20,940 bases of DNA, taken from the IMG/VR virus record IMGVR_UViG_3300035670_001423, positions 1 through 20,940 of that record; one strand, 5' to 3'. This DNA comes from a virus. The notes beneath the pieces were generated by a model, which saw nothing but the letters and a program-made list of their open reading frames with translations, had not been told where the DNA came from and searched no databases. The translations under genes were made by a program, and so were the position numbers. Below are positions 1 through 19,680 of this stretch, one piece after another (positions within the stretch are counted from its first letter, which is position 1; each line of letters starts with the position of its first letter).

Positions 1-1327
1 TTTCTACTTTAATTACATTTGGAATACCACCACGAGTAATACCTGCAGGAGCAAACCAAGGAGCACTTACTTCATCAGTAAAGGCAAATACACCACCCAT
101 TAATACAGAGGCAGGAACCCATACTAACTTACCCATAGCAGAACTAAATACTTGACACCAAGGCCAATAAGTAGCACCATAGCTAGAATTAGAAGCATTA
201 GCAGCTGTAGCAGCACTTGTAATATTACCACCGTAAGGTACTGGATCAACTACTGCTAAAGCATCAGCTCTACCTTCACACAAAGCAATTGGATCAGCAT
301 TATTAGCTCCTAAGTTAATAGCAGCGTTACCACCGGCTAAGAACAAACCTGGAGTTAATAATAAATTGAACATATATTCGTCTGTATTGCTTAGTAAATT
401 CAAAGCAGGAGCATAATCAGCAGTTGTAAATCCTTGAGCATTAGTTACACCACTAATAATGTTTTCAAACATGTTTCTAGATAAGCTAGTATCTACAACA
501 CCACCATTAAAAGCACCATCTACAGAACCACTTCCAAGAGCTGGTAAGCTAGAGCTGTAGTCTCCTGCTTGATAAAATCCATTATTATTGAATGTGTTAT
601 ATTGAGCTTGAGGAACAGTAGCTACTCTAATATATCTAGAAGCATTAGGAAAATCACCATTGTATTCAATATATCCTTGACCATCTGCAGCAGAATAAGT
701 GTAAACAGGTTTAGTATCGCCAATTACACGGCCAATATAGTTAGGTTGGTTAACATCCATAGACAAGTTAGTCCATGTTTCAAGAATATTCTTTTGAGCA
801 TTAGTATCATCACCACTTCTAACTAATAAGGTAAATGTACCATTAGTGTAGTTAACTTGGTTAACTTCCCAACGAACATTTTGAGCACTACCACTTGGTA
901 AAGCACCTGATACTACAGTACCACCTTCGTTATTCATTTGAGCACCCCAAGCTAAAGTTTCAAGGGTAAAGCTAGTTGCTAAAGCACCACTTGAAGGTAC
1001 ACTTGCTGATGCAAAACTAGATAATGCTGAACTGCCTGTTCCAGCGTTTGTAATTCTAGTTACTAGCATGGTGTTACCACCATTTTCAAAGTAATTTTTT
1101 GCAGCGATAGATGTGAAATATTCTGCTACTCCGCTAGCTCCATTTTCAAAGGTAGTACCAAACTTAGCGATATAATCACTATAAGAGGTAACAATAGTAG
1201 GTACATAAGGAATGCCATTTACAGTTGGACCTACAATAGCGGCGCCAACCACAACAGGACCTTGCGATACAGCACTCTGGTCATTTTCATTGGTATATAC
1301 ACCAGGGGAGATAATTGCTTCTGCCAT
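1..1327 (-). CDS. Tail sheath protein, T4 gp18-like (3' end outside window)
   Basis: The gene runs off the left edge; 442 codons from the N-terminus are present. It starts MAEAIISPGVYTNENDQS, which matches the start typical of contractile-tail sheath proteins (T4 gp18 begins MALLSPGIELKE), where a short segment before and after 'SPGV' makes the inter-subunit contacts. Further sheath-like stretches are GPTVNGIPYVPTIVTSYSDY (about residues 35-54), a 'GGNTMLVTRI' strand, and near the cut edge 'KLVWVPASVLMGGVFAFTDE' followed by 'APWFAPAGITRGGIPN', the conserved 'P-W-x-A-P-A-G' block of phage sheaths. The product would polymerise around the tail tube and contract on infection. The missing C-terminus normally holds the rest of the conserved inner domain. 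The ATG at 1327 is preceded by an A-rich leader without Shine-Dalgarno. Family is recognised by eye; identification is strong, subfamily is not certain. Confidence 0.9.
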   Translation of the reverse strand, partial: MAEAIISPGVYTNENDQSAVSQGPVVVGAAIVGPTVNGIPYVPTIVTSYSDYIAKFGTTFENGASGVAEYFTSIAAKNYFENGGNTMLVTRITNAGTGSSALSSFASASVPSSGALATSFTLETLAWGAQMNNEGGTVVSGALPSGSAQNVRWEVNQVNYTNGTFTLLVRSGDDTNAQKNILETWTNLSMDVNQPNYIGRVIGDTKPVYTYSAADGQGYIEYNGDFPNASRYIRVATVPQAQYNTFNNNGFYQAGDYSSSLPALGSGSVDGAFNGGVVDTSLSRNMFENIISGVTNAQGFTTADYAPALNLLSNTDEYMFNLLLTPGLFLAGGNAAINLGANNADPIALCEGRADALAVVDPVPYGGNITSAATAANASNSSYGATYWPWCQVFSSAMGKLVWVPASVLMGGVFAFTDEVSAPWFAPAGITRGGIPNVIKVE

Positions 1328-1365
1328 TTTGTATTTTTATTTAATTTTGATAGGTTTTGTCTAGC

Positions 1366-1374
1366 TATAAATAT
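1366..1374 (-). promoter_or_regulatory. Putative late promoter element upstream of the sheath gene
   Basis: On the coding strand this reads ATATTTATA, 38 nt before the sheath ATG. The downstream leader contains TAGACAAAAC, also present just after the element before the 347-aa fibre gene (coding strand, about 17130-17120), so the two leaders look related. Role as promoter is inferred from recurrence before several genes. Confidence 0.45.
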
Positions 1375-1403
1375 TCTAAAACCATTACAAAACTAAATTA
1401 GGG

Positions 1404-1682
1404 TTATTTAAGTTCGCCAGTTTCTAAATCTACTGTTTTCATTCCGTATTTATCGCCTAATTGAGCACTAAGTGATGCTTGTCTTTCAGCAAGAACGTCA
1501 ATGTGTGATAATAGATCAATACGTTCACCATTTACTTCATCAAGTCTTTTTTTAAGCCTATTAATTTCAATCTCTAGTGTGCCCAGATCGTATACTGCTT
1601 TTTGAGAACCTTCATATACATCTTTAAATTCTTTAAGTTCTTCAGCTGTTAATTTTTGTCCGTTTTTTGATTGTTTAATCAT
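1404..1682 (-). CDS. Small coiled-coil protein, unknown function (92 aa)
   Basis: A 92-residue protein predicted almost wholly helical. It begins MIKQSKNGQKLTAEELKEF and carries a heptad-like stretch from about residue 32 to 72 rich in Leu, Ile, Glu, Lys and Arg (for example LEIEINRLKKRLDEVNGE). It ends with a short non-helical tail KYGMKTVDLETGELK, a kind of ending I associate with small uncharacterised proteins of environmental T4-like phages. No catalytic motif, signal peptide or membrane segment is visible. It lies between the giant Thr-Pro protein and the tail sheath gene, so it is probably made late and may be a virion component or assembly helper, but that is inferred only from position. 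Start ATG at 1682 follows a leader of 21 nt after a putative promoter element. Confidence 0.8.
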   Translation of the reverse strand: MIKQSKNGQKLTAEELKEFKDVYEGSQKAVYDLGTLEIEINRLKKRLDEVNGERIDLLSHIDVLAERQASLSAQLGDKYGMKTVDLETGELK

Positions 1683-1743: not shown

Positions 1744-4700
1744 TTAAGTAGTTCCTAGATCTAATAATACAATTGTCATATCACTTAGATATCCCCGAGC
1801 ACCACTAGCTTCAACATCAAGCTGCCAAGCTATTGTATTTGAAGTACCAGAGAAAGTTACTATCCGAGATATTACAGTAGGTAGTTTTTCTGAAGTTGCA
1901 TTAGGCTCACGGAATTGTTGAACGCAATAGTCAGTAGATGTTGTAGTGTTCCGGAGTTTACATGCAAATGATGAGGCTGTGCTACTGCCTGATAGATAAG
2001 CACTTGCTAATAATAGGTGTTTGTTTGATGGATTTACTATATTAAATGTTGTGCTATAAGCATTTACATAAGAAGTACTAGTAGTAGAGAAAGGACTTAT
2101 ACTTTCACCATAATACACATTTTCAAATTGAGATGTATCTAAAGCTAACATACTAGCTTGTAACATAATACCTTGGTTAGAACCATCACCTCTATATTGT
2201 AAATTAAATGTTGTATTACTTGCTACTGTTTTCCTAAATACATGCCAGAATGGAGAACGATTAGAAGCATCTTGTAAGAATACGTCTGTCATTTCACCAT
2301 AGCTAGTTGTACCATCAAATATTCTGAATCTAGGATTACCTGCTGTGCTATTAGAACCAATAGCAGCAGAACCTACAATAATATAAGTACCTGCAGGTAC
2401 TGTTACTCCAGTTTTAGTTGCATAAGTTGTACTTGTAGTATTTGATGCTGCTGAACTAGAGCTATATGTATCAGATGCTACTAACCTTAAAGCAGCCATT
2501 GCATATCCTGAATAGCCTTGATCCTCCCCTGAATCTTCTCCTGATTCTTGAATTGTCCACCGTTGTGTATTATCACTATCATATGGTAACATACCTCCTA
2601 CAGATATTCTGTCTGTAGTGTCTTGAGGTTCCATATTATTTAATTGGATAACAGTAGTAGCCCGTGATCCTGTAAGTCTCATTCTTACATCTGTATCAGT
2701 AGCACTGTTATCCATATTACCCATCCAGAAGATAACACTATTGGTTCCTGCAGAACCTATTACTTCTACGTTTGCTATATTAAGATATGTAGTAGAAGAT
2801 CTAACTGATCTTGATGCAGTGTATGGTGATTCAAAGAATGTTCTTACAATAGCACCCCCACCTTGGCTTGGAGTAATAGATGGTGTTAATGTTCGTGTTG
2901 GTGTAACAGTTGGTGTACGTGTCCGTGTTGGTGTAATAGTTCTTGTTGGTGTAATAGTTCTTGTTGGTGTAATAGTTCTTGTTGGTGTTGGTGTTGCTGT
3001 AAGTGTAGCTGTTGGTGTAGGAGTAACACCAGCACAAGGTCCTTCAGTAGCAGTAGGTACAGGGGATACACCATTAACAGCAACCCATGTAGTTATTTGC
3101 CATGGGTATGTTACATTGTCTCCACTAGAATAATATAAAGTAAGAGTTGATGTATCTCTTAATTGCCAGTTAGTTCCATTCCATGATATTCTAAGAGTAC
3201 CGAAATCATAAGCATTTCTACTATTAATTGTTCCAACAACTGCATAAGTTCCATTAACTAAGGTTGTTCCTGCTCCTGCTATACAAACACTATTATTATT
3301 AACTCCTGAAGTTGAAGGAGTAACAGTTGGTGTTGCTGTGATTGTAACTGTTGGTGTTGGTGATGTTGCAACACAATCTCCTTGAGTTACTGTAGGTACT
3401 GGGGCAATTCCATCAAATGTTACCCATGTTATTGCTTGATAAGGGAATGATACATCCTCATAACTTTCATAGTATACTAACGATACGTTAAAATCATAAA
3501 TCCCCCAACCTCCACTATATTGTATTCTTAAATTTGTATCTCCGTTTTTTACGTATCTTGGTCTACCATTAGTGGTTCCATTTTGTGTATATGTTCCATT
3601 AGCAACAGAAGTACCTGCTCCAGCTACACACACAGTACTAACTCCCCCACTTGAAACAGTAACTGTTATGCTTGGAGTAGCAGTTTGTGTTGGAGTAATA
3701 GTTCTTGATGGTGTAACAGTCCGAGTAGGGGTGATAGTTCTTGATGGTGTTATAGTCCGAGTTGGAGTGATACTTGGAGTAATAGTTCTTGATGGTGTTA
3801 TAGTCCGAGTTGGAGTGATACTTGGAGTAATAGTTCTTGATGGTGTTATAGTCCGAGTTGGTGTTATAGTCCGAGTAGCAGTTATACTAGGAGTTATAGT
3901 TGCTGTTGGCGTTATTGTTTTAGTAGGTGTAATTGATGGAGTAATAGTTCGTGTTGGAGTAATAGTTCTTGATGGTGTTACAGTTGAAGATGGTGTAATT
4001 GTCCTTGTAGGTGTAATTGATGGAGTAATAGTTTTAGTTGGTGTAATTGTAGCTGTAATTGTAGGTGTAATTGTAGGAGTTATAGTCCGAGTAGCAGTTA
4101 TACTAGGAGTTATAGTTGCTGTTGGCGTTATTGTTTTAGTAGGTGTAATTGTCTTTGTTGGTGTAACTGTCCGAGTTGGAGTTATACTAGGAGTAATAGT
4201 AACAGTTGGTGTTATTGTTCTAGATGGTGTAATTGATGGAGTAATAGTCCGTGTTGGTGTAACTGTTCTTGAAGGTGTTATAGTTGGAGAAGGTGTAACT
4301 GTTTTTGTCGGAGTAATTGTAGGAGTAATAGTACGAGTAGCAGTAATACTTGGAGTTATTGTTGCTGTTGGTGTTATTGTTCTACTAGGAGTAATAGTAA
4401 CAGATGGTGTAATTGTCCGAGTTGGAGTAATTGATGGGGTTATTGTTACCGTTGGTGTTATTGTCCGAGTAGCAGTAATACTTGGAGTAACAGTTTTAGT
4501 TGGTGTTATAGTTTTAGTTGGTGTTATAGTTGGAGAAGGTGTAACTGTTTTTGTCGGAGTAATTGTAGGAGTAATAGTCCGTGTTGGTGTAATAGAAGGA
4601 GTAACTGTTTTTGTCGGAGTAACAGTTCTTGTTAAAGAAGGTGTTATACTAGGAGTAATTGTTTTAGTAGGTGTTATTGAGGGAGTTATACTACTAGTTG

Positions 4701-7194
4701 GTGTAACAGTTCTTGAAGGTGTTACAGTTACAGATGGTGTAATTGTTTTACTTGGAGTAATAGACGGTGTTATTGTTACTGTTGGTGTTACTGTCCGAGT
4801 AGCAGTAATACTAGGAGTAACAGTTTTACTAGGAGTAACTGTTTTTGTTGGTGTGACTGTCCGAGTTGGAGTAATTGATGGAGTTATTGTTATACTAGGA
4901 GTAATTGTTTTAGTAGGTGTTATAGTTGGTGTGATAGTTCTTGAAGGTGTAACTGTCTTTGTTGGTGTAATTGTCCGAGTAGGTGTTATAGATGGTGTAA
5001 TAGTAGTAGTTGGAGTAATAGTTCTTGAAGGTGTTATGCTAGGAGTAACAGTTTTACTAGGAGTAATAGTTGAGCTTGGTGTAATAGTTCTAGTAGGTGT
5101 TATACTAGGAGTAATTGTTGCTGTTGGAGTAATAGTTCTTGAAGGTGTTATAGACGGGGTAATGGTTCTTGTTGGTGTTATAGTAGCACTTGGAGTAATT
5201 GTTCGTGTTGGAGTAATTGATGGGGTTATTGTTGCTGTAGGAGTTATAGTTCTGCTAGGGGTAATTGATGGTGTAATAGTTACAGAAGGTGTAACTGTTT
5301 TTGTCGGTGTTATAGTCCGAGTTGGGGTAATTGATGGTGTAATAGTTACAGAAGGTGTAACTGTTTTTGTCGGTGTTATAGACGGTGTAACAGTTACACT
5401 TGGAGTAATTGTTTTACTAGGAGTTACTGTTGGTGATGCTGTTATACTTGGAGTAATTGTCCGTGTTGGTGTTATTGTTCGAGTTGGTGTAATTGAAGGT
5501 GTTATAGAAGCTGTTGGTGTAATTGTTCTAGATGGTGTTATGCTAGGAGTAACAGTCCGAGTTGGTGTAACAGTTACTGAAGGTGTAACTGTTTTTGTCG
5601 GTGTAATTGATGGAGTTATTGTTGCTGTAGGAGTAATAGTACGAGTTGGAGTAATACTTGGAGTTACTGTTACAGAAGGTGTAACAGTTTTACTTGGTGT
5701 TACAGTTGGAGAAGCAGTTATTGATGGTGTAACAGTAACAGATGGAGTTATAGTTCTAGTTGGTGTAATTGAAGGTGTAATTGTAATAGATGGTGTTACT
5801 GTTGAACTAGGAGTTATTGTTCTAGAAGGTGTAATTGACGGTGTAATAGTAACAGTTGGAGTAATTGTTCTACTTGGTGTAATTGATGGTGTAACAGTTT
5901 TACTAGGGGTAACAGTAGCACTAGGAGTAATAGTTCTTGAAGGTGTTATCGAAGGTGTTATTGTTACTGTTGGTGTTACAGTTCGAGTAGCCGTTATACT
6001 AGGAGTAATTGTTACTGATGGTGTAACAGTTTTGCTTGGTGTTACAGTTGGAGATGCTGTTATACTAGGTGTAATAGTAACAGAAGGAGTTATTGTTCTA
6101 GAAGGTGTAATTGACGGTGTAATAGTAACACTAGGTGTAATGGTAGATGATGGAGTTACAGTTCGAGTTGGTGTAATTGAAGGAGTTATTGTTACAGTTG
6201 GTGTTATAGTTCTACTTGGTGTAATTGATGGTGTTACAGTTACTGATGGAGTAATAGTTGAACTTGGAGTTATTGTTCTAGTTGGTGTAATTGAAGGTGT
6301 AATCGTTGTTGTTGGAGTTATAGTTCTAGTTGGAGTAATACTAGGAGTTATTGTTACTGATGGAGTAACAGTACTAGATGGAGTAATTGTTCGTGTTGGT
6401 GTTATAGATGGTGTAATTGTTACACTTGGAGTAATAGTAGAACTAGGAGTAACAGTTGGAGAAGCAGTTATACTAGGAGTTACAGTAACAGTTGGTGTTA
6501 TTGTTCTAGATGGTGTAATAGAAGGAGTAACAGTTACTGTAGGTGTTATTGTTCTAGAAGGAGTAACAGTAGGAGATGCTGTTATTGAAGGAGTTATTGT
6601 TGCGCTTGGTGTTATTGTTCTAGAAGGAGTAATTGATGGTGTTATTGTAACAGTTGGAGTTACAGTTACAGAAGGAGTAACAGTGCTAGAAGGTGTAATT
6701 GTAGGAGTTACAGTTACAGAAGGAGTAACAGTACTAGATGGTGTAACAGTTCTAGTTGGCGTTATTGATGGAGTGATTGTAACTGTAGGAGTAACAGTAG
6801 CACTTGGAGTTACAGTTCTTGTTGGTGTAATAGAAGGTGTAATTGTAACAGACGGTGTAACAGTACTAGAAGGTGTCACTGTTACGGAAGGTGTAATAGT
6901 AACAGATGGAGTAATTGTACGAGTTGGTGTAATTGATGGAGTAATAGAAGGAGTTACAGTTACAGATGGAGTAACAGTTCTTGAAGGTGTTGGTGGAGGT
7001 GTAAATTGATCATACCCATACCAGCTGCTCAATCTAAAAGGAGCGCTAGAATCAGGTTGATAAGGTGAATAAGGATTTAAAGGTACATATTCACCTAAAG
7101 ATGCGCTAGTTAGAGAAAATGGTGCTTGGGCCGGTATACCCAATTCATTTCTAACATCGTCAAGTGATATAGATCCTGTTAACTGTAACGGCAT
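1744..7194 (-). CDS. Giant Thr-Pro-Ser repeat protein, putative tail-associated fibrous adhesin (1816 aa)
   Basis: Order of parts: residues 1-64 a small N-terminal domain (SISLDDVRNELG, then 'SWYGYDQF'), of a type I associate with N-termini of phage tail proteins; 65 to about 1178 a repeat of TP[ST]xT[IV] and TPSI units containing only T, P, S, I, V, A, R, K plus rare L/Q; about 1186-1274 and 1300-1387 two homologous modules of about 88 residues, each starting [ST]VC[VI]AGAGT and ending with a Cys (QGDC, EGPC); 1388-1444 a second short TP-rich linker; 1445-1816 a C-terminal region that looks like three related beta-rich repeats of about 120 residues, each ending in an 'LxALDT'- or 'LLDLG'-like strand. 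No signal peptide, no enzyme motif. The gene sits between tail-completion genes and the sheath gene, so a virion fibre or whisker that binds the cell surface is the best guess. The reading frame is intact through more than 3 kb of repeats, which argues for function. Function is inferred, not recognised. Confidence 0.85.
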   Translation of the reverse strand: MPLQLTGSISLDDVRNELGIPAQAPFSLTSASLGEYVPLNPYSPYQPDSSAPFRLSSWYGYDQFTPPPTPSRTVTPSVTVTPSITPSITPTRTITPSVTITPSVTVTPSSTVTPSVTITPSITPTRTVTPSATVTPTVTITPSITPTRTVTPSSTVTPSVTVTPTITPSSTVTPSVTVTPTVTITPSITPSRTITPSATITPSITASPTVTPSRTITPTVTVTPSITPSRTITPTVTVTPSITASPTVTPSSTITPSVTITPSITPTRTITPSSTVTPSVTITPSITPTRTITPTTTITPSITPTRTITPSSTITPSVTVTPSITPSRTITPTVTITPSITPTRTVTPSSTITPSVTITPSITPSRTITPSVTITPSITASPTVTPSKTVTPSVTITPSITATRTVTPTVTITPSITPSRTITPSATVTPSKTVTPSITPSRTITPTVTITPSITPSRTITPSSTVTPSITITPSITPTRTITPSVTVTPSITASPTVTPSKTVTPSVTVTPSITPTRTITPTATITPSITPTKTVTPSVTVTPTRTVTPSITPSRTITPTASITPSITPTRTITPTRTITPSITASPTVTPSKTITPSVTVTPSITPTKTVTPSVTITPSITPTRTITPTKTVTPSVTITPSITPSRTITPTATITPSITPTRTITPSATITPTRTITPSITPSRTITPTATITPSITPTRTITPSSTITPSKTVTPSITPSRTITPTTTITPSITPTRTITPTKTVTPSRTITPTITPTKTITPSITITPSITPTRTVTPTKTVTPSKTVTPSITATRTVTPTVTITPSITPSKTITPSVTVTPSRTVTPTSSITPSITPTKTITPSITPSLTRTVTPTKTVTPSITPTRTITPTITPTKTVTPSPTITPTKTITPTKTVTPSITATRTITPTVTITPSITPTRTITPSVTITPSRTITPTATITPSITATRTITPTITPTKTVTPSPTITPSRTVTPTRTITPSITPSRTITPTVTITPSITPTRTVTPTKTITPTKTITPTATITPSITATRTITPTITPTITATITPTKTITPSITPTRTITPSSTVTPSRTITPTRTITPSITPTKTITPTATITPSITATRTITPTRTITPSRTITPSITPTRTITPSRTITPSITPTRTITPSRTITPTRTVTPSRTITPTQTATPSITVTVSSGGVSTVCVAGAGTSVANGTYTQNGTTNGRPRYVKNGDTNLRIQYSGGWGIYDFNVSLVYYESYEDVSFPYQAITWVTFDGIAPVPTVTQGDCVATSPTPTVTITATPTVTPSTSGVNNNSVCIAGAGTTLVNGTYAVVGTINSRNAYDFGTLRISWNGTNWQLRDTSTLTLYYSSGDNVTYPWQITTWVAVNGVSPVPTATEGPCAGVTPTPTATLTATPTPTRTITPTRTITPTRTITPTRTRTPTVTPTRTLTPSITPSQGGGAIVRTFFESPYTASRSVRSSTTYLNIANVEVIGSAGTNSVIFWMGNMDNSATDTDVRMRLTGSRATTVIQLNNMEPQDTTDRISVGGMLPYDSDNTQRWTIQESGEDSGEDQGYSGYAMAALRLVASDTYSSSSAASNTTSTTYATKTGVTVPAGTYIIVGSAAIGSNSTAGNPRFRIFDGTTSYGEMTDVFLQDASNRSPFWHVFRKTVASNTTFNLQYRGDGSNQGIMLQASMLALDTSQFENVYYGESISPFSTTSTSYVNAYSTTFNIVNPSNKHLLLASAYLSGSSTASSFACKLRNTTTSTDYCVQQFREPNATSEKLPTVISRIVTFSGTSNTIAWQLDVEASGARGYLSDMTIVLLDLGTT
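3736..3861 (-). repeat. Exact 48-nt tandem duplication within the Thr-Pro array
   Basis: Positions 3736-3783 and 3784-3831 are identical, and 3832-3861 continues the same sequence for about 30 more bases before diverging. This corresponds to 16 codons repeated in frame and looks like a recent unit duplication. Confidence 0.9.
3863..4151 (-). repeat. Identical 73-nt direct repeat pair within the Thr-Pro array
   Basis: Positions 3863-3935 and 4079-4151 read the same base for base. The offset is 216 nt, an exact 72 codons, so the copies are in frame. The bases between them are ordinary degenerate repeat units. Confidence 0.88.
4274..4578 (-). repeat. Identical 59-nt direct repeat pair within the Thr-Pro array
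   Basis: Positions 4274-4332 and 4520-4578 are identical; the offset of 246 nt is 82 codons. Both copies encode a TPTITPTKTVTPSPTITP-type segment, one of the few places with the PSPT variant. Confidence 0.85.
5258..5381 (-). repeat. Tandem 66-nt duplication (58 identical bases) within the Thr-Pro array
   Basis: Positions 5258-5315 and 5324-5381 are identical, giving a 66-nt (22-codon) period that differs from the usual 48-nt period. Both copies encode TPTKTVTPSVTITPSITP. Confidence 0.85.
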
Positions 7195-7238: not shown

Positions 7239-7472
7239 TTATTTAATCCATTTATTTTCAGGACATGACTCTTTATCTTCAGCAAATATCTTTTTATTTA
7301 GTGGACACCCACATAAATTGCAATAGTAAAAATCAATAAGCGTAGTATTTTGCTTACGATGCTCACAACCATTGCATATCTGAGCCCTATGTTTAGCTTT
7401 TTCAAGAGCCTCGGGGCTAGGATTAGCCGCTGTTATCCAGGCATTTGCTATTTCTTTGAATTTTTTAAACAT
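7239..7472 (-). CDS. Small six-cysteine, probable zinc-binding protein (77 aa)
   Basis: Residues 1-30 are helical and basic (MFKKFKEIANAWITAANPSP, then EALEKAKHRA). They are followed by a cysteine cluster: C33-x2-C36, C51-x2-C54-x-C56 and C70, in the context ICNGCEHR, YYCNLCGCPLNKK and ESCPENKW. This spacing fits a compact zinc ribbon or treble-clef-like fold. I associate this small 'CNxC...CGCPL...SCPxNKW' protein with environmental T4-like phages, where its function is not known to me. It lies between the gp15-like gene and the giant repeat gene. The 38-base gap upstream lacks the exact promoter-like element; the closest match on the coding strand is TATTTTATA, so it may be transcribed from the neck cassette. 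No DNA-binding role can be claimed from sequence alone. Confidence 0.8.
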   Translation of the reverse strand: MFKKFKEIANAWITAANPSPEALEKAKHRAQICNGCEHRKQNTTLIDFYYCNLCGCPLNKKIFAEDKESCPENKWIK

Positions 7473-7510
7473 AATTTAAGATAATAACTTTTTATAAAAT
7501 AACCAAATTT

Positions 7511-8386
7511 TTATAGATTTCCTGCTCTTATGTTGTCGATGTTCTTAACTACTTCGTTTGTAATTGTAACAGTAGATTTAGAAAAGAATTGACGTTTACC
7601 ATTTGTAGCCATATCTTTATTCATTGTATCAGGGATAATATAACCATATAAAGTTATACTCATATTTGTTCTTGCAACACGTTGTTCATTTACAGAATAT
7701 TCAGCTGTTGAATCAAATCTGTCTATGTATGTTCTAAATTGAAATCTATTTTTATCTCCCCAATATGAATCAGAAGCAAATTCTATTGATTCAATTATTT
7801 TATTGTTTTCCTGCATGTAATTTGTAAACACAATACAATCATATGTCAGATTGATATAGTCAGGTACTGGGGTTAGATAGAATTTATCAGATGGGGTCCA
7901 ATTATTTAGTATATCAAATGGTGTATATTGATTTTGTTGATTATATCTTGCTTTAGAGACAGCAAAATTATTTACATTATTCCCATCTAATTTATTTGCT
8001 AGTGTTCTATTTTTTTCAAATCCTGTTCTCCTCACCATAATGATAGGATACATGATTCTACCATTTTTATCTCTCCAATATCCATCTTGTTGAATAGAAA
8101 CCCAACGTTCTTGAGAACCATAACTTACAGGAACACTAACTTTATTACCATTTTGAATTACAGTAGGTTTAATTACATTATTGAAATAATAAAATACAGC
8201 TTCATCTATATCTTGTAATCCAATAGTAAACGGTTTGATATCATTTTCAATATCAACCGAAATTTGATTTGCACGAGTAATTTGTTCCTCAGGTAAAAAA
8301 GGTTGAGTTCCAGGAATATAAGGATCAATTTGATCTCTTACTCTTTCAGCTGGTGTGTTTGGTAATATGGGTAGTTGTCTTGGCAT
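7511..8386 (-). CDS. Tail sheath stabilizer and completion protein, T4 gp15-like (291 aa)
   Basis: The assignment is based on remote resemblance to T4 gp15 (272 aa), which caps the tail and joins it to the neck. Matching blocks, in order: VPVSYGSQERW at residues 85-95 (T4: VPITYASKEHF); LTYDCIVFTNYMQENNKIIE at 180-199 (T4: MIYELSIFTRYEDDMFQIVE); and VARTNMSITLYGYIIPD at 237-253 (T4: RRRIEWSLTFEVNGWMYPP). The first 60 residues are proline-rich and poorly structured. The start ATG overlaps the stop of the gp14-like gene by one base (TAATG), which indicates translational coupling. There is no Shine-Dalgarno sequence. The neighbouring gp13- and gp14-like genes support the call. In a mature virion it would form a hexameric ring at the tail end. 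Confidence 0.78.
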   Translation of the reverse strand: MPRQLPILPNTPAERVRDQIDPYIPGTQPFLPEEQITRANQISVDIENDIKPFTIGLQDIDEAVFYYFNNVIKPTVIQNGNKVSVPVSYGSQERWVSIQQDGYWRDKNGRIMYPIIMVRRTGFEKNRTLANKLDGNNVNNFAVSKARYNQQNQYTPFDILNNWTPSDKFYLTPVPDYINLTYDCIVFTNYMQENNKIIESIEFASDSYWGDKNRFQFRTYIDRFDSTAEYSVNEQRVARTNMSITLYGYIIPDTMNKDMATNGKRQFFSKSTVTITNEVVKNIDNIRAGNL

Positions 8387-8883
8387 TATCTAGATTGAGT
8401 TATACCTAATAGTTCAGGAGAAACATAATGAGCAAAACATATAATAGAAAAACTTGCACCAAAATTATCTAGATATTCTCCTCCATAATTGTATTGAGGT
8501 ACTTTACCTACTATATCTTGGTTTTCGTTTACTAAATTTACTTCATAATAATCATTATTCCATAATATAATATCACCTATTTGAGGTACTACATTTTGTA
8601 CTACTAAATCACTACGTAAAAATCTAAATCCAAAATTTCTTGTAATATCAGGACCTAAACTATCATAATTACCTTCATAATCTCCTCTATCAATTAAGCA
8701 TTGAATCAATACAGGAGGAAGATACATTTTAGTACCGTTAGCTGCTTCACCATAAACATTTTGAGGAGTTTCTTGTAATGATATTTGATAATATCCTATA
8801 TTTTGCTCAATAATGTTATGTATCAACTCAGTGTTGATAACATGAAAAAATGAAATATCGCGAGCACTACCGTATAGAGCCAT
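8386..8883 (-). CDS. Head-completion neck protein, T4 gp14-like (165 aa)
   Basis: The protein is shorter than T4 gp14 (256 aa) but keeps its middle. 'KMYLPPVLIQCLIDRGDYEG' at residues 52-71 sits where T4 has 'CYYVPREYV'. GDIILWNNDYYEVNLVNENQ at 103-122 matches T4 [20 protein letters not shown], and is followed by a GK-containing turn (IVGKVPQY) and an 'AHYVSPELLG' end. The N-terminus MALYGSARDISFFHVINTEL, like the whole protein, resembles short neck proteins of environmental T4-like phages. It would close the packaged head together with the gp13-like protein. It begins two bases after the stop of the 110-aa gene and ends in a one-base overlap with the gp15-like gene. The assignment is by motif and gene order, without database support. 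Confidence 0.75.
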   Translation of the reverse strand: MALYGSARDISFFHVINTELIHNIIEQNIGYYQISLQETPQNVYGEAANGTKMYLPPVLIQCLIDRGDYEGNYDSLGPDITRNFGFRFLRSDLVVQNVVPQIGDIILWNNDYYEVNLVNENQDIVGKVPQYNYGGEYLDNFGASFSIICFAHYVSPELLGITQSR

Positions 8884-8885
8884 TA

Positions 8886-9218
8886 TTAGTAATTTCTAAT
8901 TTTTAATAATGTTTTTGTTCTAACATAAAACTTCAATAGTCCTGGTATTTTTAGAGCTTCATGTTTGATCATTTTGATAGTATCTATTGCATTACCTTCA
9001 GAAATAAATTTTATTTCAAGTAAGGTATATTTGTAATCATCAGTTGAAGCAGCGTCTAATTTTTCGGTATCAATTACTTTAACTACAACTACATCTCTAA
9101 TACCACGAATTTGATTGTATATTTCTGTAAAGTTAAAGTCGGTTCTCATTTTGATGACTACTTGTACAAAAGATGTCTCAAATGTTGCTTCGTTTAATAT
9201 AGTTTGTAATGATATCAT
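8886..9218 (-). CDS. Unknown 110-aa protein in the neck cassette
   Basis: I do not recognise a family. The protein begins MISLQTILNEATFETSFVQV and shows an alternating beta-alpha-beta pattern. A strand (FVQVVIKMRTDF, about 17-28) is followed by a helix (FTEIYNQIRGI), a strand (VVVVKVID), a loop, a long strand (KYTLLEIKFISE), a helix (AIDTIKMIKHEALKI) and a last strand (LLKFYVRTKTLL). That order is typical of a small ferredoxin-like fold. There are no cysteine clusters or enzyme motifs. It starts one base after the gp13-like stop (coding strand TTTTAAAATG) and ends two bases before the gp14-like ATG, so it belongs to the same translationally coupled cassette. A minor neck or tail-completion role is plausible from position only. 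Confidence 0.8.
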   Translation of the reverse strand: MISLQTILNEATFETSFVQVVIKMRTDFNFTEIYNQIRGIRDVVVVKVIDTEKLDAASTDDYKYTLLEIKFISEGNAIDTIKMIKHEALKIPGLLKFYVRTKTLLKIRNY

Positions 9219-9219
9219 T

Positions 9220-10392
9220 TTAAAATATGTAAAAGCCCATTGGCACGTTAGCTAATGTTTTGTTTAAATTATCAGCATTTGCTGCTTGTTTTTCAAGTTG
9301 TTTTTGTCTTCCTGTTTCTGCTAGTGTTTCTCTTAATTGCAACAATAATGCTTCTTTTGTTGATCTAGCATCTGTAAGTAAATCTTGTTGATTAAGAGTA
9401 ACTTCAGATCCAGGGATAGGTACTGTTGAATATTTACCCCTTACATATCCTAAAATTTCACGACATAATGCTAATGTATATTGATAAACCCACATTCTAC
9501 CTATTGAATTAATATAGTTGTAGTTTGGATTTATATAAGGTACATTTGAAGGATTTGTAATAAGATTTGTTTGAGCAGATCCACTTGCACTTCTTCCTCC
9601 TACAACACTATCTCTTTCACTTCCTTTAACATATTGGATCCATAAAGTATAGTCAATTAAAGGAATAGGGAATATTTTAAGTTGGTTATTTATAATTTCA
9701 AAAGAGAATGCTGCTTTTCTTATTTGATCATTTAATTCAATTGCTTGAATTCTTTGTAAGTCAAAAAACAAAGGCATCAACATAAAGGTAATGGCAGGAG
9801 AGTAGGCTCCAAAACCAAAGCTATTAAGTAAACCCTCATAGCTATATCCTATACCAACATATGGATCAAAATATCTTAAAGCAGCTGGAGGTGCTTCAAA
9901 AAATACTCTCTTTACTTCAATATAATCTCCAGGAGCAAGTGATGCTGATTGTAAAGCCCATGTATCTAAGTCATATGATTGTGTAAGAGCGTGTAAATGT
10001 ATTGCACCACTATACCATGTAACATCACCACCAACGCCTGCTTCTTCTCCGTAATCAGATGCAATTCTAATCATTCCTCCAAGTGAAGGAGTCATTAGTA
10101 ATTGGTTAAACGGACCAGAACCTGTTGGGTTTCCTTCCATAGAGAGCATGTTCTCTCTAATTTGGAATTGGTAGACTTCATTACCATATACTGTAACAGC
10201 TTCTTCAAAAGCTGTGTATATTTGAACTGGTTGTAATTCTACAACTTCAATAGGCCATCCTAGTCGCCTTGTAACAAAAGTTACAACAGCATCGGCATCT
10301 ACTTGAAAATCATATTGATAATCGTAGAAACCAAAGGCAGTATCCCCAGGAAAAAACGAGGAACTACCAGCATATACAGGAATATTGGCCAT
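9220..10392 (-). CDS. Head-completion neck protein, T4 gp13-like (390 aa)
   Basis: T4 gp13 (309 aa) seals the portal with gp14. Here residues 37-71 contain VVTFVTRRLGWPIEVVEL followed by QPVQIYTAFEEAVTVYG, matching T4 VILRRLGAPIINVEL ... QIYDCIQRALELYG. The C-terminal part has 'GRMWVYQYTLALCREILGYV' (T4: RWVKDYATALAKELNGQIL) and PGSEVTLNQQDLLTDARSTK (T4: PGGVTIDGQRLIEEARLEK), followed by EALLLQLRETL. Compared with T4 there is an N-terminal extension of about 30 residues (MANIPVYAGSSSFFPGDTAF...) and a longer C-terminal helix rich in Gln/Lys ending PMGFYIF. It is the first gene of the neck cassette, 15 nt downstream of a putative promoter element, without Shine-Dalgarno. I am confident in the family, less so in any fine role of the extensions. 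Confidence 0.83.
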   Translation of the reverse strand: MANIPVYAGSSSFFPGDTAFGFYDYQYDFQVDADAVVTFVTRRLGWPIEVVELQPVQIYTAFEEAVTVYGNEVYQFQIRENMLSMEGNPTGSGPFNQLLMTPSLGGMIRIASDYGEEAGVGGDVTWYSGAIHLHALTQSYDLDTWALQSASLAPGDYIEVKRVFFEAPPAALRYFDPYVGIGYSYEGLLNSFGFGAYSPAITFMLMPLFFDLQRIQAIELNDQIRKAAFSFEIINNQLKIFPIPLIDYTLWIQYVKGSERDSVVGGRSASGSAQTNLITNPSNVPYINPNYNYINSIGRMWVYQYTLALCREILGYVRGKYSTVPIPGSEVTLNQQDLLTDARSTKEALLLQLRETLAETGRQKQLEKQAANADNLNKTLANVPMGFYIF

Positions 10393-10420: not shown

Positions 10421-13400
10421 TTACTCTGGTTTATTTTTTGTTTTAGGTTTGCGAGTTTTTTTAGGTTTTTCAATGCCTTTAAGCTCATTTATTTCGTCTT
10501 TAAGTTCCTTAATACATTGTATAAGGAAAGGAACTAATTTTTCATACTTAACTGCTTTATACCCATTATTTCTAGTTGTTACTACTTCAGGTAATATTTC
10601 CTCAATTTCTTGGGCTACAACTCCTATATCACGACCTCTAAACCCATGCATTGCTATTAAGTCTTCATCTTCTTTCCAATCAAAGGTATAACCTTGTATA
10701 TTATCTAATTTGTATAAAGCATTAGCAATTGGCTTAAGATTTTCTTTAAGTGCTCTATCAGAAGTAGAGAAAGATACAACATCATTTGTAGCATCAATCC
10801 TACCTACAACAGCGGATCCTGTTGTACCTACACCTAATGAACTTGTTACATGCAATGAGCCTGTTATTATAGTTGAAACAGCTATAGATCCTGTACCGTT
10901 ACTTCCACTTGTAAATTGTATTTTAATATTACCACTACCATCAGCAATAATAATATTATTATCAAGAGTAGATGGTAATCCTTTTATATTAGCACCTAAT
11001 ATAGTATTATTACTACCAGAAGCCATTCCAAAACCAGGCATATAGCCTACTATAGTATTATTGCTACCTGTTCCTAAATTTTCTGCTGTTGTCCTTCCTA
11101 CAAAGACGTTGTTACTACCTGATCTTAATGTATAACCAGCAGCTTGTCCAAGTGCCGTATTAGAAGATCCGCTTACCATATTGTATAAAGCAAAATCACC
11201 AAAAGCAGCATTATAATCATCTGATGTATTTCTGTACAATGCATAGGAACCAAAAGCATTGTTTACTTCACCTGTAGTGTTGAAGGCTAATGCATAAGCA
11301 CCAAATGCATTATTTCTAAAACCAGTAGACCCTGTTGTGTAAAACAAAGCATAAGCACCTACAGCAGTATTTCTATTATTAGTTGCATATCTTAAAGCAC
11401 CATATCCTACGGCAACATTTTCAACTCCGGAAACTAATTCAGCTAATGTATAATCTCCTATAGCTATATTACGGTTAGTTCCTGCACTAGCACTTCTGAG
11501 TGTTGCATATCCAAAAACTAAATTATTTCCAGTGCTAGCGGAATAATATGCTCTACCTATTGTTATAGGTTCTGATGTGGCACTTCTTATAAGAATATCT
11601 GTGCTACCTGTTATTGAACCTGTTACTGAAAGTGAACCTGTTAAGCTAAATGAACCAGTAATTATTACACTTTGAGTAAGTGGATTAATATACGATGCTG
11701 TATTAGCATTTAGAGTTTGAGAAGCAGATACAGCAAAACTAGCAGTTCCAAATAATGAGCCTGTTACTTGTGTAATATTTGCTATACTAGCTGTTATAAA
11801 AGAAGCAGTAATAGAGCTAATATTATATAGATCATTTCCTCCAAGACCTAAATCATTAGACATTTGTCTTCCACCATCAACAAGCAAGTATTGAGGGTGA
11901 TCATCCGCACTTAATCCTAACAAGTTACCGTGTACTGCAGAGGCATTAACTCCGGAGGCTTGGAAACCAATTACAGGACGTATGTCTTCAATTTGGGTTA
12001 TGTTAGCAGATCCTGACTGTACATAGACAGCAGCTATTGATACAACACCATCATTAAAGTAACTTGGTATGTTTGGTAAATTAGCTCCTTCTGCTTCAAC
12101 TAATGTTGAATATTGGTTATTATTAACTACTAAAAAGTATTTTTCATTAGCTCCATCTCCTACCAAAAATACTATATGTTTAGTATAGTAAGAAGCAGAC
12201 ATTGGAATTAATTGGCTTCCAGAAGCATATACACTACTAGGTACAAGTGATGAAGTATATGTTGCCCATCCAGAACCACTTGTATAGTATTGATTTAAAT
12301 TAATAGAAGAGGTACCAGCAGGAGTAAATTGGTTTTCTGAGAAGAAATAGACACCTGAGGTTACATCTAGTTGAAAAGGAGTAGTATCTGCTGTTACAAT
12401 AGAACCTTGAGAATATACAGGTCCTAAGGCTTCTCTATTAAATGTGGAGATTTTATTAGACATATGTTCTCCATCATATGGGCTTTGATCTATAAATTCT
12501 ATTGTAGTATCATTAGTTACTACTCGACCTAATATAATATTAGTTGCATTATCAGGAACAGACCCAGCAGCTGATAATATTGAATTATCATTAAAGTAAA
12601 TATAGTTGTTTGTATTAGCTGCTAAAATTAAAGTACTATTACTCCAATCTATTCTTTCGTATACATCTAGATTTAAGGAGTTTTGTAAATAACCAAAACC
12701 AGCAGCTACGTTAATTGTTAAACCACCAGAAACAGATAAAGTACCACCTTGCATTACCCCCATTGGGGATCCTTTAAATATAAGAGTTGTAGCATCTGTG
12801 TGGGTACCATCAGCAAATGTTACGGATAATTTACGAGTAACGTCATTTTCACCGTCAGCATCATCTAAGAAATTCCAATATACTTCACTACTTACATTAT
12901 TTATTTTACTATGATCTGCTATACCTTGAAAACGACCTTGTGTTCCTGTTTTTTGTATGTATAAATCATAAGTAAGAGAATCGTGAATCATTCCTCCTAC
13001 TACTCTAAAAGTAGGAGCGTTTCCTATATTAGGTACTTGTATACCATATTCCCAATTTTGAACATCAAGTCCAGCTATTTCAGCTATAGCTCTATCTGCT
13101 AAATAAATTGCACTAGAACCAGACACTGAATCTCCTGCAAACACAGAAGTATATAGATCTAATTCAGCTCCACTTCCTATAGCATAATTACCTGTAGAAA
13201 CAGTACCTGAAGGGAATAGGTAGTAGTTTTCCATGTTGGCATTAGCCATTATCCCTCCACTAGCAGATACATAAGTACCATAGCTAAAAGAACCATTAAT
13301 ATCTACATACTCACCAAAGAATTGAGTTGGAGCAGAGGTACCTATTACTTTTACACCATAATCAGATTCATAAATTGATATTTTATGAACTAATGAAAAT

Positions 13401-15493
13401 CCATCTATATTTTCACAAAGAATAGCAGCATATCCAGATCCTGCTCCTCGTATTGTCATAAAAGATAATTCATTAGAATTACCTAATTTAAATATGTTAT
13501 GGTTACTACCTGAAGCTATAACTTCAGTAGTTTGTATATCAGAACCTACTATACTAATATATGGTTTTCCTGTTAAATCAATTTCTTTTTCTATAAATTG
13601 ACCAGGACCTACTTCAATTACATACCTATTATTTTCTGAGGAGTCAGTAATGTAAGCAACTGAAGCGCTGATAGAGGTGAAATCGCCTCCTTTTTTGTTT
13701 ACAGTTATTTTTCTTTGATCAGTATTAACCTCATATAAAGGAGCTTCATATGGTATAATTGTTTTTAAAAATGTATCGTTTCCTTGAACTTTGCCTATTG
13801 ATCCAGTATGTTCAATAAATACATCTCTAGTACAGTTTTCAAAGTTAAGAGCAATAGCATCAATACTTGGAGCAGATCCTGTTTGAGGAGCCCAAATACC
13901 ATTAGTCCATCTTTGGAAGTTAACTCCTGTTAATCTTAAAACACCACCATTATATACTTTAAATCCGGTTCCAAGAGAAGATCCTACTGCTCTTGTTAAT
14001 AAACATCCATTAACAATGAATGCACAACCAGGAGCGTCGGCTAGGGCAAATATTTGATTTGGATCAGAACCTTCTATACCACCATTTGTAGAAGTTACGT
14101 TACGTAATTGCATTCTACCTATGCTACCATTGCTGCCTGTTACATGGAAACCAATATCAAATGATTTTACACTAGCATCTGTGAATCCACCATATTTTAC
14201 ATTGGAACATTGTAAAATACAGTTTCCACTTCCAGAACCTTCACAAGTTGCATTTGTATAGTTGGTACCAAAACGAATATTTTCTGCGTATGCAATTGCA
14301 TTTGTTTGTGGTGTTGTAGCAGATGAATAATAAATTGCAGAAACACCAGGAGCAGTAGCACCTTGTATTTGCATATCTATGACCATAGTTTGGTCTGACA
14401 TTATAAATATGCTAGCACTTGGGTTAGAAGCAGATACAACAGTTGATGTTGAACTTTCACCCTTAACTGCTACATAAGAAGGTACTGTAATTGTATCTTC
14501 GATATAAACACCAGGGTATACTTTTACAGTATAAGTATTATTTACAGAAGCATCTGTAATGCTATCTACAGCAGTTTTAATTGAATTATAATCAGTATCA
14601 CTGCCAGGTAAACCTACAGTTATAAAATTATCTATAAAATTAGGAGCTGAATTTTCAGCATATGAAGATGTTATTGAGTAAGAAGCAGAAGTAACAAATA
14701 ATGAAGATGTTGATACTGCTGTTGGATAATTATTTGAAGCTCCTATCCAAGTATATCCTGGTTGTATGTTTGGTAAATTAGATGGACCTGAATTAAATAC
14801 TACTCCTTGCCCCCCACTTCCTTCTTTAGTTACGTATCCTAATACTTGGATTATGGCAGAACCAGTAGGGCGAGTTGAAGTCCAACCACCACCTACACCT
14901 ATAAATATTTCTGTTCCTGCAGGGTATCCTGTTGTATCAACACCTTTAATTAAACCTAATGCTATACCCCTACCTGTTCCTCCCGGTGCAATAGTATCTG
15001 CTGTAATATAGACTACGGGCATTTTTAAAGCGTTACCTGCATCTGCTACATAAACTATAGAAGCAGCTCCTATAGAACCTGAAACATATACTGGTGTTCC
15101 TTTTGTTATAGTGGTAACTTCACCGTTGTATATTTCTTCATATATTGTTTTAACATATTGTAATGATAAAGTACCATTACCATCTGTTTGTATAAATGAT
15201 TCTTCACCATTATCTGCTATAGGATATAATAATCCACTAGCTGTGAATGAATTTGATACGTTAAATGTAGTAGCATATGATGATGTAGTACCATAGGAAG
15301 CACTTAAAATACTATTTGAGCCATAAGGACCAAATACATTAGAACTCGTTATAAATGATGAAGTTATTGCTTGAGAAGCCGATACAGCAAACGATGCTGT
15401 GCCAAACAAGGAGCCGGTTATACCATTATCGACAGTAAGAGAGTTTAGGCTAGCATTCGAGCCTGATACAATGACTTTTTTCCAGTTTGGCAT
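10421..15493 (-). CDS. Large tail fibre/tailspike with beta-helix modules, YadA-like repeats and S74 chaperone (1690 aa)
   Basis: I chose ATG 15493 because MPNWKKVIVSGSNAS aligns with the start of the 347-aa fibre protein; an in-frame GTG at 15532 would add 13 unrelated residues. Parts from this start: 1-23 shared N-terminal tag; 27-75 GSLFGTASFAVSASQ-type Ser/Ala repeats; about 118-250 a beta-rich module (KGTPVYVSG, GRGIALGLIKG); about 288-580 and 596-865 two right-handed beta-helix, pectin-lyase-like modules, each opening with a VKVYPGVYIE- or IEVGPGQFIE-type strand; 1188-1202 HGNLLGLSADDHPQY; about 1335-1515 repeats of the NTAVGAYAL / NNAFGSYAL type as in YadA-like head domains; 1578-1690 a Peptidase S74 intramolecular chaperone with Ser1578 and Lys1583 in SDRALK, the spacing of the endosialidase self-cleaving dyad, plus IGVVAQEIEEILPEVV and a basic tail. 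A trimeric fibre that cuts off its own chaperone is expected. The beta-helices might bind or degrade polysaccharide; no catalytic site is evident. Confidence 0.9.
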   Translation of the reverse strand: MPNWKKVIVSGSNASLNSLTVDNGITGSLFGTASFAVSASQAITSSFITSSNVFGPYGSNSILSASYGTTSSYATTFNVSNSFTASGLLYPIADNGEESFIQTDGNGTLSLQYVKTIYEEIYNGEVTTITKGTPVYVSGSIGAASIVYVADAGNALKMPVVYITADTIAPGGTGRGIALGLIKGVDTTGYPAGTEIFIGVGGGWTSTRPTGSAIIQVLGYVTKEGSGGQGVVFNSGPSNLPNIQPGYTWIGASNNYPTAVSTSSLFVTSASYSITSSYAENSAPNFIDNFITVGLPGSDTDYNSIKTAVDSITDASVNNTYTVKVYPGVYIEDTITVPSYVAVKGESSTSTVVSASNPSASIFIMSDQTMVIDMQIQGATAPGVSAIYYSSATTPQTNAIAYAENIRFGTNYTNATCEGSGSGNCILQCSNVKYGGFTDASVKSFDIGFHVTGSNGSIGRMQLRNVTSTNGGIEGSDPNQIFALADAPGCAFIVNGCLLTRAVGSSLGTGFKVYNGGVLRLTGVNFQRWTNGIWAPQTGSAPSIDAIALNFENCTRDVFIEHTGSIGKVQGNDTFLKTIIPYEAPLYEVNTDQRKITVNKKGGDFTSISASVAYITDSSENNRYVIEVGPGQFIEKEIDLTGKPYISIVGSDIQTTEVIASGSNHNIFKLGNSNELSFMTIRGAGSGYAAILCENIDGFSLVHKISIYESDYGVKVIGTSAPTQFFGEYVDINGSFSYGTYVSASGGIMANANMENYYLFPSGTVSTGNYAIGSGAELDLYTSVFAGDSVSGSSAIYLADRAIAEIAGLDVQNWEYGIQVPNIGNAPTFRVVGGMIHDSLTYDLYIQKTGTQGRFQGIADHSKINNVSSEVYWNFLDDADGENDVTRKLSVTFADGTHTDATTLIFKGSPMGVMQGGTLSVSGGLTINVAAGFGYLQNSLNLDVYERIDWSNSTLILAANTNNYIYFNDNSILSAAGSVPDNATNIILGRVVTNDTTIEFIDQSPYDGEHMSNKISTFNREALGPVYSQGSIVTADTTPFQLDVTSGVYFFSENQFTPAGTSSINLNQYYTSGSGWATYTSSLVPSSVYASGSQLIPMSASYYTKHIVFLVGDGANEKYFLVVNNNQYSTLVEAEGANLPNIPSYFNDGVVSIAAVYVQSGSANITQIEDIRPVIGFQASGVNASAVHGNLLGLSADDHPQYLLVDGGRQMSNDLGLGGNDLYNISSITASFITASIANITQVTGSLFGTASFAVSASQTLNANTASYINPLTQSVIITGSFSLTGSLSVTGSITGSTDILIRSATSEPITIGRAYYSASTGNNLVFGYATLRSASAGTNRNIAIGDYTLAELVSGVENVAVGYGALRYATNNRNTAVGAYALFYTTGSTGFRNNAFGAYALAFNTTGEVNNAFGSYALYRNTSDDYNAAFGDFALYNMVSGSSNTALGQAAGYTLRSGSNNVFVGRTTAENLGTGSNNTIVGYMPGFGMASGSNNTILGANIKGLPSTLDNNIIIADGSGNIKIQFTSGSNGTGSIAVSTIITGSLHVTSSLGVGTTGSAVVGRIDATNDVVSFSTSDRALKENLKPIANALYKLDNIQGYTFDWKEDEDLIAMHGFRGRDIGVVAQEIEEILPEVVTTRNNGYKAVKYEKLVPFLIQCIKELKDEINELKGIEKPKKTRKPKTKNKPE

Positions 15494-15524
15494 ATCAAAT
15501 ATTTTGTTTTTATTGCGGTTAGAT

Positions 15525-15547
15525 ACATACACTTATGCCGTGTATAT
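15525..15547 (-). promoter_or_regulatory. Hairpin in the long leader of the 1690-aa fibre gene
   Basis: On the coding strand ATATACAC-GGCATAA-GTGTATGT forms an eight-pair stem (one G-U) with a seven-base loop. It lies within an 87-base segment between the putative promoter element and the ATG that is richer in G and C than other leaders here. Regulatory role is a guess. Confidence 0.35.
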
Positions 15548-15580
15548 GCCTACTTCCCGTTAGGGCCAGCAATATTCCAC

Positions 15581-15589
15581 AATAAATAT
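15581..15589 (-). promoter_or_regulatory. Putative late promoter element upstream of the 1690-aa fibre gene
   Basis: Coding-strand ATATTTATT six bases after the stop of the 74-aa gene and 87 nt before the fibre ATG, an unusually long spacing compared with 14-41 nt for the other copies. Confidence 0.4.
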
Positions 15590-15595
15590 GCTAAA

Positions 15596-15820
15596 CTATT
15601 TCTTGGCTTGTTGTCTTTCCTTGTCGAGGGCGATTGCTTTTTCTAATTCCGCGGTTTTTTTTTCGCTCATCATGTTATTAATTTCTGTAATTTCATGTTC
15701 TAATTTATTTTGCAAATTAGCTAGAAATTTTGCATCTTTACCCGTAATGTTTACAACATCAGATGCTTGACGCATGAAAATTAATTCATTAAGAGTGAAA
15801 TCTACTGAGAATAGATCCAT
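15596..15820 (-). CDS. Small helical protein in the fibre block (74 aa)
   Basis: A 74-residue protein beginning MDLFSVDFTLNELIFMRQAS. After a short strand and loop (VVNITGKDAKF, about 22-32), the rest is an uninterrupted charged helix with coiled-coil character (LANLQNKLEHEITEIN, then KKTAELEKAIALDKERQQAKK). I know no function for it. It is preceded directly by another small protein gene (two bases between stop and ATG) and followed by the large S74 fibre gene. That position and its size resemble T4 gp57A (79 aa), a coiled-coil chaperone for fibre trimerisation, but there is no sequence match I can point to, so the chaperone idea is an inference. Stop is TAG. Confidence 0.75.
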   Translation of the reverse strand: MDLFSVDFTLNELIFMRQASDVVNITGKDAKFLANLQNKLEHEITEINNMMSEKKTAELEKAIALDKERQQAKK

Positions 15821-15822
15821 AA

Positions 15823-16029
15823 CTATTTATTTTTTACTTTGGTGTGTTGGTTTTGGAGTTTAAAAGCTGTATTGTAAATTAATTCTACATGTTCGCCTTT
15901 AAATGTTGTTTGTTTTAACAACATAAGTAAAAACTCTAGTTCCTGAGTGTTTAATTGGTCAGGAGCTAGAGTTTCTGTATTTTGTGGTTGTATACCTTTT
16001 TGTTGGTTAATTTTATCTAATAATCCCAT
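15823..16029 (-). CDS. Small protein in the fibre block (68 aa from the preferred start)
   Basis: Preferred start is ATG 16029 (MGLLDKINQQKGIQPQNTET), 19 nt after the stop of the 347-aa gene. In-frame alternatives are ATG 16074 and TTG 16083, but the extra residues are only the shifted reading of the 347-aa protein's conserved C-terminus (GNIFIGTDENIWIYS), which makes them doubtful. The body has a disordered Gln/Thr/Pro stretch (about 10-28). It is followed by a helix pair TQELEFLLMLLKQTTFKGEH and VELIYNTAFKLQNQ, and a basic end (HTKVKNK). The pattern 'LEFLLxLLKxxxFKGxxVELIY' looks like a small family I associate with environmental phages. Function unknown; a fibre assembly helper or fibre-attached minor protein is possible from position. 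Stop TAG, two bases before the next ATG. Confidence 0.7.
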   Translation of the reverse strand: MGLLDKINQQKGIQPQNTETLAPDQLNTQELEFLLMLLKQTTFKGEHVELIYNTAFKLQNQHTKVKNK

Positions 16030-16048
16030 AACTAGTTTTAAAAATGTT

Positions 16049-17092: not shown

Positions 17093-17133
17093 TTATTTTA
17101 AAATTTTGTCGTTTTATAGTTGTTTTGTCTAAT

Positions 17134-17142
17134 AATAAATAT
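17134..17142 (-). promoter_or_regulatory. Putative late promoter element upstream of the 347-aa fibre gene
   Basis: Coding-strand ATATTTATT, 41 nt before the ATG at 17092, followed by TAGACAAAAC as in the tail sheath leader. It lies five bases after the stop of the 706-aa gene. Confidence 0.45.
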
Positions 17143-17146
17143 TTAT

Positions 17147-19641: not shown

Positions 19642-19671
19642 ACTTTGTAGAAATTACTGGCTATAAATATT

Positions 19672-19680
19672 GTTTTTGTT
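19672..19680 (-). promoter_or_regulatory. Putative late promoter element upstream of the 124-aa gene
   Basis: Coding-strand ATATTTATA, 30 nt before the ATG at 19641 and one base after the phoH stop codon. It would drive the fibre block. Confidence 0.45.

Follow-up and report, generated by a model that had tools for sequence, protein, structure and literature searches.

The window, that is, the entire 20,940-base IMG/VR viral contig IMGVR_UViG_3300035670_001423, comes from a large myovirus, a tailed phage known only from metagenomes, and encodes an 1816-residue protein that we read, with moderate confidence, as a gp38-like receptor-binding protein (adhesin) docked on a tail fibre and carrying an extreme flexible tether, rather than as a neck whisker or a stiff 300-nm rod. 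The gene content, all on the minus strand, comprises a capsid-protein-like fragment, a PhoH-like gene, several fibre-type genes, a fibre tipped with an S74 domain, neck/adaptor genes, the tethered-protein gene, a gene for a 92-residue protein, and the tail sheath gene. The closest named relative by tail sheath is Flavobacterium phage immuto (53% identity), followed by Microcystis phage Mel-JY01 (44%). The original prediction had placed the gene between neck genes and tail sheath, and this held: neck/adaptor genes adjoin it on one side and the 92-residue gene and the sheath on the other. The gene thus sits in the virion operon. The features are as follows.

1744 to 7194, minus strand: complete tethered-protein gene, 1816 amino acids, ATG start at 7194.
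7003 to 7194, minus strand: putative N-terminal docking module, amino acids 1 to 64, delimited by alignment; homologues in 18 viral contigs and in named phages.
3649 to 7002, minus strand: tether, amino acids 65 to 1182 (1118 residues), an unbroken Thr/Pro/Ser/Ile/Val chain with Arg/Lys.
3370 to 3639, minus strand: headA copy 1, amino acids 1186 to 1275, delimited by alignment.
3031 to 3300, minus strand: headA copy 2, amino acids 1299 to 1388, delimited by alignment.
2863 to 3027, minus strand: second, short TP linker, amino acids 1390 to 1444.
1747 to 2862, minus strand: terminal head, amino acids 1445 to 1816, based on 62% identity to the L002 protein, a fold match, and the C2-versus-C3 score; its domains are C1 (about 1450 to 1574), C2 (about 1571 to 1690), and C3 (about 1691 to 1816).
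10421 to 15532, minus strand: proposed partner, a 1703-residue tail fibre with a C-terminal S74 intramolecular chaperone (PF13884, E = 5e-15).
About 10580 to 10762: S74 domain (Peptidase_S74) of this fibre (Pfam PF13884, E = 5e-15).
7239 to 10392, minus strand: neck cassette and small genes, encoding a 390-residue adaptor (Ad2-like), proteins of 110, 165, and 291 residues, and a 77-residue Cys-rich protein.
2 to 1682, minus strand: tail sheath (partial) and the 92-residue gene, downstream of the tethered-protein gene, in synteny with immuto and Mel-JY01.

The 706-residue fibre-like protein encoded at 17147 to 19267 (minus strand) has a short collagen-like GPPGPQGPQGPSG stretch near its N terminus.

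Profile searches identified homologues of the N-terminal module in 18 viral contigs, including that of a sister phage (IMGVR_UViG_3300008116_000011; 174 kb; L003, or G001 as a genome). They are N-terminal and 55 to 65 residues long, residues G7, E17, G34, and W58 to Y61 are invariant across the aligned relatives, and the parts that follow are mutually unrelated (for example, a DUF5122 beta-propeller). A profile-profile comparison of the modules gave 98.2%. A profile built without the rows of the window or the sister recognized the sister's copy at 1.5e-18 and the modules of named phages at 2e-3 to 6e-8, its only further matches in those genomes being two extra copies in 1.081.O and one in the 178-kb genome G006. 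The link from the window to named phages came via the relatives' sequences, as direct tblastn with the N- and C-terminal ends of the window protein found no match in named phages. Hosts of the module include T7-like, N4-like, T4-like, jumbo, and environmental phages; none was found in bacterial genome contigs searched with one sequence pattern. AlphaFold produced a poor model of the module (pLDDT, 60); structure comparison with it returned no chain.

In residues 1 to 64 of the window protein and in BUCT194 gp065, the module may be built from three short pseudo-repeats with the pattern (S/T)G.(I/V)S..D....G(K/R). Among the named-phage modules, only segment 1 versus segment 3 was significant (P = 0.001, with limits set after seeing the sequence), the other pairs being nonsignificant. 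By analogy with the three helices of gp38, a pseudo-threefold repeat may suit a trimeric fibre end.

The gene order around the module was counted in 18 contigs other than the window and the sister (L002 and L009 to L025). These are partly redundant (L011/L012, L015/L016, L018 to L020, and L021/L024/L025 are alike), with several lineages remaining. The module gene lies directly behind a fibre gene ending in S74 in 15 of them, with a gap of -17 to +103 bases, and one small ORF separates the two genes in the other three (L009, L019, and L023). Pfam analysis of ten upstream proteins detected S74 in all of them, and in L009, L019, and L023 there are S74 hits in the contig. The HMM search of the N-terminal module that had been suggested as a check matched proteins encoded behind tail fibres in named phages: the module gene is immediately behind the S74 fibre gene in BUCT194, BF, AD45-P1, OLIVR5, and AG-345-L05, mostly with overlapping stop and start codons; in EniLVp02 (Straboviridae) it follows the gene for the long-tail-fibre distal subunit, which is the gene-38 position of T-even phages; and in Pasto it follows a T7-type fibre gene. 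The distal parts of the Pasto, AG-345-L05, and OLIVR5 module proteins are Gly rich. By these comparisons, the module is widespread among phages and linked in gene order to S74-matured tail fibres. The predicted virion anchor thus survives in part, since residues 1 to 64 behave as a shared docking module, but one tied to S74 fibre genes and not to necks.

Some observations count against docking on a fibre. Five genes separate the fibre and tethered-protein genes in the window and likewise in the sister, direct adjacency being found among the module's relatives, and the module copies in nt-1, 1.081.O, and PA5oct do not adjoin fibres. An S74 fibre is nevertheless present in the same genome as the tethered protein in the window, and the sister genome contains a single S74 hit and a single module.

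The sister contig carries the same gene at the same place. Neighbouring genes are 92% to 99% identical between the two phages, residues 1 to 64 are 98% identical, and both proteins have two headA domains. The terminal head, however, is swapped: tandem jelly rolls in the window stand against a Gly-rich domain in the sister, whose PHROG matches carry the names tail fiber assembly and minor tail protein, while module and tether are kept; glycine-rich motifs are absent from the window head. The S74 fibres (window, 10421 to 15532; L003, 499 to 4773) are 38% identical overall but 84% identical in the first 60 and 88% in the last 130 residues. A fast-changing fibre shaft and head with fixed ends would be the behaviour of host-range loci. 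In L002, a 458-residue protein encoded 9 bases behind an S74 fibre gene consists of the same type of N-terminal module, a poly-Thr linker, and a C terminus 62% identical to that of the window protein. Because L002 carries the same head on a different linker, module, linker, and head are separable parts, and the originally predicted C-terminal binding heads do look exchangeable. In G006, 12 bases behind an S74 fibre gene, a 1411-residue protein (G006, 46984 to 51219, minus strand; within contig piece L181) begins with the module and continues as small Cys-rich beads on TP linkers. As G006 is an independent case, TP linkers have been joined to module proteins in at least two lineages. The sister genome also encodes a second TP protein of 2350 residues (13255 to 20307, minus strand), whose small domains are separated by many TP runs and whose gene lies close to baseplate-type genes.

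The globular ends that had been predicted were confirmed. Alignment of the two headA copies scored 205, versus 30 ± 5.7 for shuffles, which marks headA as a duplicated domain, and C2 and C3 resemble each other with a Z score of 6.5 against shuffles. The predicted model of residues 1178 to 1816 was usable only for the last two domains (pLDDT mostly 60 to 85), which match C1q, TNF-family proteins, the PLTL and BC2L-C lectins, and the cyanophage A-1(L) short-tail-fibre domain with Z scores of 11 to 13.5; they also match an uncultured phage protein (root mean square deviation, 2.7 over 243 columns). According to this modest-confidence model, C2 and C3 are C1q/TNF-like ten-stranded jelly rolls. Model confidence is low for headA and C1, and therefore we claim no fold for them; C1 is probably a third jelly roll. 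The top-ranked matches are single-chain trimers of C1q and BAFF-type proteins, which a pseudo-trimer of tandem domains would fit, with C1 modelled at low confidence. A Pfam match of headA to BARF1_ig2 (E = 3.5e-4, under its cut-off) was taken as chance. HeadA-like domains also occur in other viral contigs without clear TP or S74 context.

The tether contains 431 Thr, 202 Pro, 153 Ile, 141 Ser, 84 Val, 58 Arg, 24 Ala, 23 Lys, 1 Leu, and 1 Gln, so that Ser and Thr make up 51% and Pro 18%. The original prediction of more than 1,100 residues devoid of Asp, Glu, Gly, Cys, and aromatic residues is borne out, His, Met, and Asn being absent as well. The predicted regular placing of Arg and Lys was likewise found, with 80 of the 81 basic residues within T[PA][ST][RK]T and the remaining one in SLTRT, and successive Pro residues are most often spaced by 6 positions (136 cases) or by 4 (52 cases). 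Third codon positions differ in about 52% of copy pairs of the 6-mer units, whereas nearly every Thr and Pro is retained. Since synonymous sites vary while Thr and Pro are kept, and since the sister has the same kind of protein, the tether is, on codon-level comparison, a selected protein sequence; a slippage artefact or noncoding repeat was rejected on the grounds of near-saturated synonymous change and the conserved orthologue. A plus-strand open frame of 1145 codons (3572 to 7009), antisense to the tether and without Thr-Pro character, was rejected as a gene and regarded as a mirror or by-product of the repeat; similar but shorter antisense frames occur in the sister.

Length and TP pattern, but not charge, are conserved, because the sister tether, 1100 residues long, follows the same TP grammar yet contains 34 Arg and lacks Lys altogether, giving a net charge of +34 versus +81 in the window. 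Even basic charge, which had been put forward as a key feature, is therefore not one. Nor did the proposed stiff rod of about 300 nm hold up. As Pro accounts for just 18% of residues, the calculated length of about 350 nm is the contour of the fully stretched chain only, and a flexible tether would probably average about 20 to 100 nm end to end, depending on stiffness. TP linkers are common in environmental phages (at least 119 stretches; at least 43 ORFs whose runs reach 60 or more), and among the matches listed only an end-open run in L054 (1463) is longer than the unbroken 1118 residues seen here. Our search of the literature on Thr-Pro linkers in phages found nothing relevant.

We propose that the N-terminal module would dock onto the tail fibre, most likely at the distal end of the trimeric 10421-to-15532 fibre after the S74 chaperone has been cut off. 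The protein, as a presumed virion component, would present two head classes on its tether, the duplicated headA and the tandem C1q/TNF-like jelly rolls. The probably flexible Thr/Pro/Ser chain would enlarge the space within which the heads can encounter their surface ligand, which is probably a glycan, and head swapping would change the ligand.

The original prediction pictured instead a neck whisker, that is, a T4 wac-like protein whose module binds the neck and whose heads wave from the collar. Its gene does lie between neck genes and sheath in both the window and the sister, but in every one of the 18 other contigs the module goes with S74 fibres, including L002, L015, and L016, where the same neck genes are located elsewhere, and searches of Pfam and PHROGs found no similarity to fibritin; we consider a whisker unlikely. 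Genes downstream of fibres often encode chaperones (PMC7289586), and the module might accordingly help the fibre to fold, with the protein then released, like T4 gp38 or V22 gp27. S74 fibres already have their own chaperone, though, and in a helper one would hardly expect a tether of 1.1 kiloresidues with swapped, lectin-like heads, which makes this reading quite unlikely. Both readings fit less well than a fibre-docked adhesin.

Two further alternatives concern the tether itself. It could be a mucin-like shield or spacer, a heavily O-glycosylated Thr/Ser chain that mainly coats or stiffens the fibre region, as its 51% Ser plus Thr with regular Pro might suggest; by eye, several long ORFs of the sister genome resemble glycosyltransferases. 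We regard this as improbable, as most phages have the module without a tether and the heads sit at the tether's far end. Alternatively, selection might act on the repeat DNA itself, which would provide a track for recombination when heads are swapped and yield the protein tether only as a by-product. Such a track would accord with the swap between the window and the sister and with internal exact repeats in the window core that reach about 80 bases, versus at most 40 in synonymous shuffles. However, near-saturated synonymous sites destroy long DNA identity, and the longest stretches shared with the sister and with the second TP gene measure 35 and 32 bases, the same as in shuffled controls, so that we give this idea very little credence.

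In both phages, CGG codons for Arg are nearly restricted to TP genes. CGG accounts for 23 of 90 Arg codons in the tethered-protein gene versus 1 of 127 elsewhere in the window (P = 4e-9), and for 14 of 100 in the two TP genes of the sister versus 4 of 1797 elsewhere in its genome (P = 1.3e-15; contig pieces L162 to L170). The sister encodes tRNA-Arg(CCG) (L167, 3719 to 3791), which reads CGG, together with tRNA-Thr(UGU) (L164, 18473 to 18547) and tRNA-Leu(UAA), and its two TP genes hold 30% of its Thr codons. This pattern may serve to provision the TP genes or may be left over from their origin. A general rule that phage tRNAs match TP genes was rejected, as G006 has 29 tRNA genes and CGG is common there. 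The sister also has a tmRNA (L164, 19337 to 19726, minus strand; Rfam RF00023, 56.8 bits) with the predicted tag DEMSTMTFDDLMAFVGADEATFA.

Taken to its full extent, and only tentatively, the system could resemble a fishing line: an adhesin with tandem jelly-roll heads on an unbroken Thr/Pro tether of more than 1,100 residues, attached to the tip of an S74-matured fibre through a module as yet without a name, which serves many phage families as a common plug for exchangeable adhesins, with the sister's small tRNA set including one that reads an Arg codon nearly exclusive to its TP genes. An unannotated module of 55 to 65 residues is now tied to S74-matured tail fibres, and the order of module gene behind S74 fibre gene offers a testable rule for finding separate fibre-borne adhesins that are now annotated as hypothetical proteins. 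The tether suggests that phages may place binding heads on extremely long disordered chains and not only on rigid fibres.

In S16, the fibre has a self-cleaving chaperone at its C terminus, and a single gp38 caps it by inserting three N-terminal helices into three pockets of the gp37 trimer (PMC7289586, PMC6851490), whereas other proteins encoded behind fibres, such as T4 gp38 and V22 gp27, can be nonretained chaperones (PMC7289586). Like the gp38 adhesins of T2/S16-type T-even phages (PDB 6F45; PMC6851490, PMC12892980), the tethered protein would be a separate receptor-binding protein with an N-terminal attachment domain and an exchangeable distal head. The systems further share a fibre with a self-cleaved C-terminal chaperone and, at the family level of the module, a position behind the distal fibre gene, and the sister head and some named relatives are Gly rich, as gp38 is. 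However, the window heads are jelly rolls and not a polyglycine sandwich, the tether has 1118 residues where gp38 has a short linker, and five genes intervene between fibre and tethered protein in the window. Two module profiles searched against all PDB sequences matched none of the solved gp38 chains, a comparison at the sequence level, the module model being poor. The system thus appears gp38-like in gene order (at the family level) and architecture, and we do not place it in the gp38 family.

Hypothetical proteins encoded behind fibres (BUCT194 gp065, BF gp259, AD45-P1 gp019, OLIVR5 gp116, EniLVp02_0085, and Pasto_053; PHROG 21885) have a homologous N-terminal module and the same gene order, but they are short (170 to 360 residues), lack a TP tether, and have unrelated heads. 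The TP-linked multidomain proteins of environmental phages (the 1411-residue G006 and 2350-residue G001 proteins; phrog_15511) join small domains by TP[ST] repeats, as here, and the G006 protein additionally bears the module and is encoded behind an S74 fibre; their linkers are mostly shorter and interrupted, whereas the window has one unbroken stretch. The last two domains of the window protein share their fold with the trimeric heads of C1q, the PLTL and BC2L-C lectins, and the cyanophage A-1(L) short tail fibre, a fold that alone shows no function, but in the window they are arranged in tandem in one chain.
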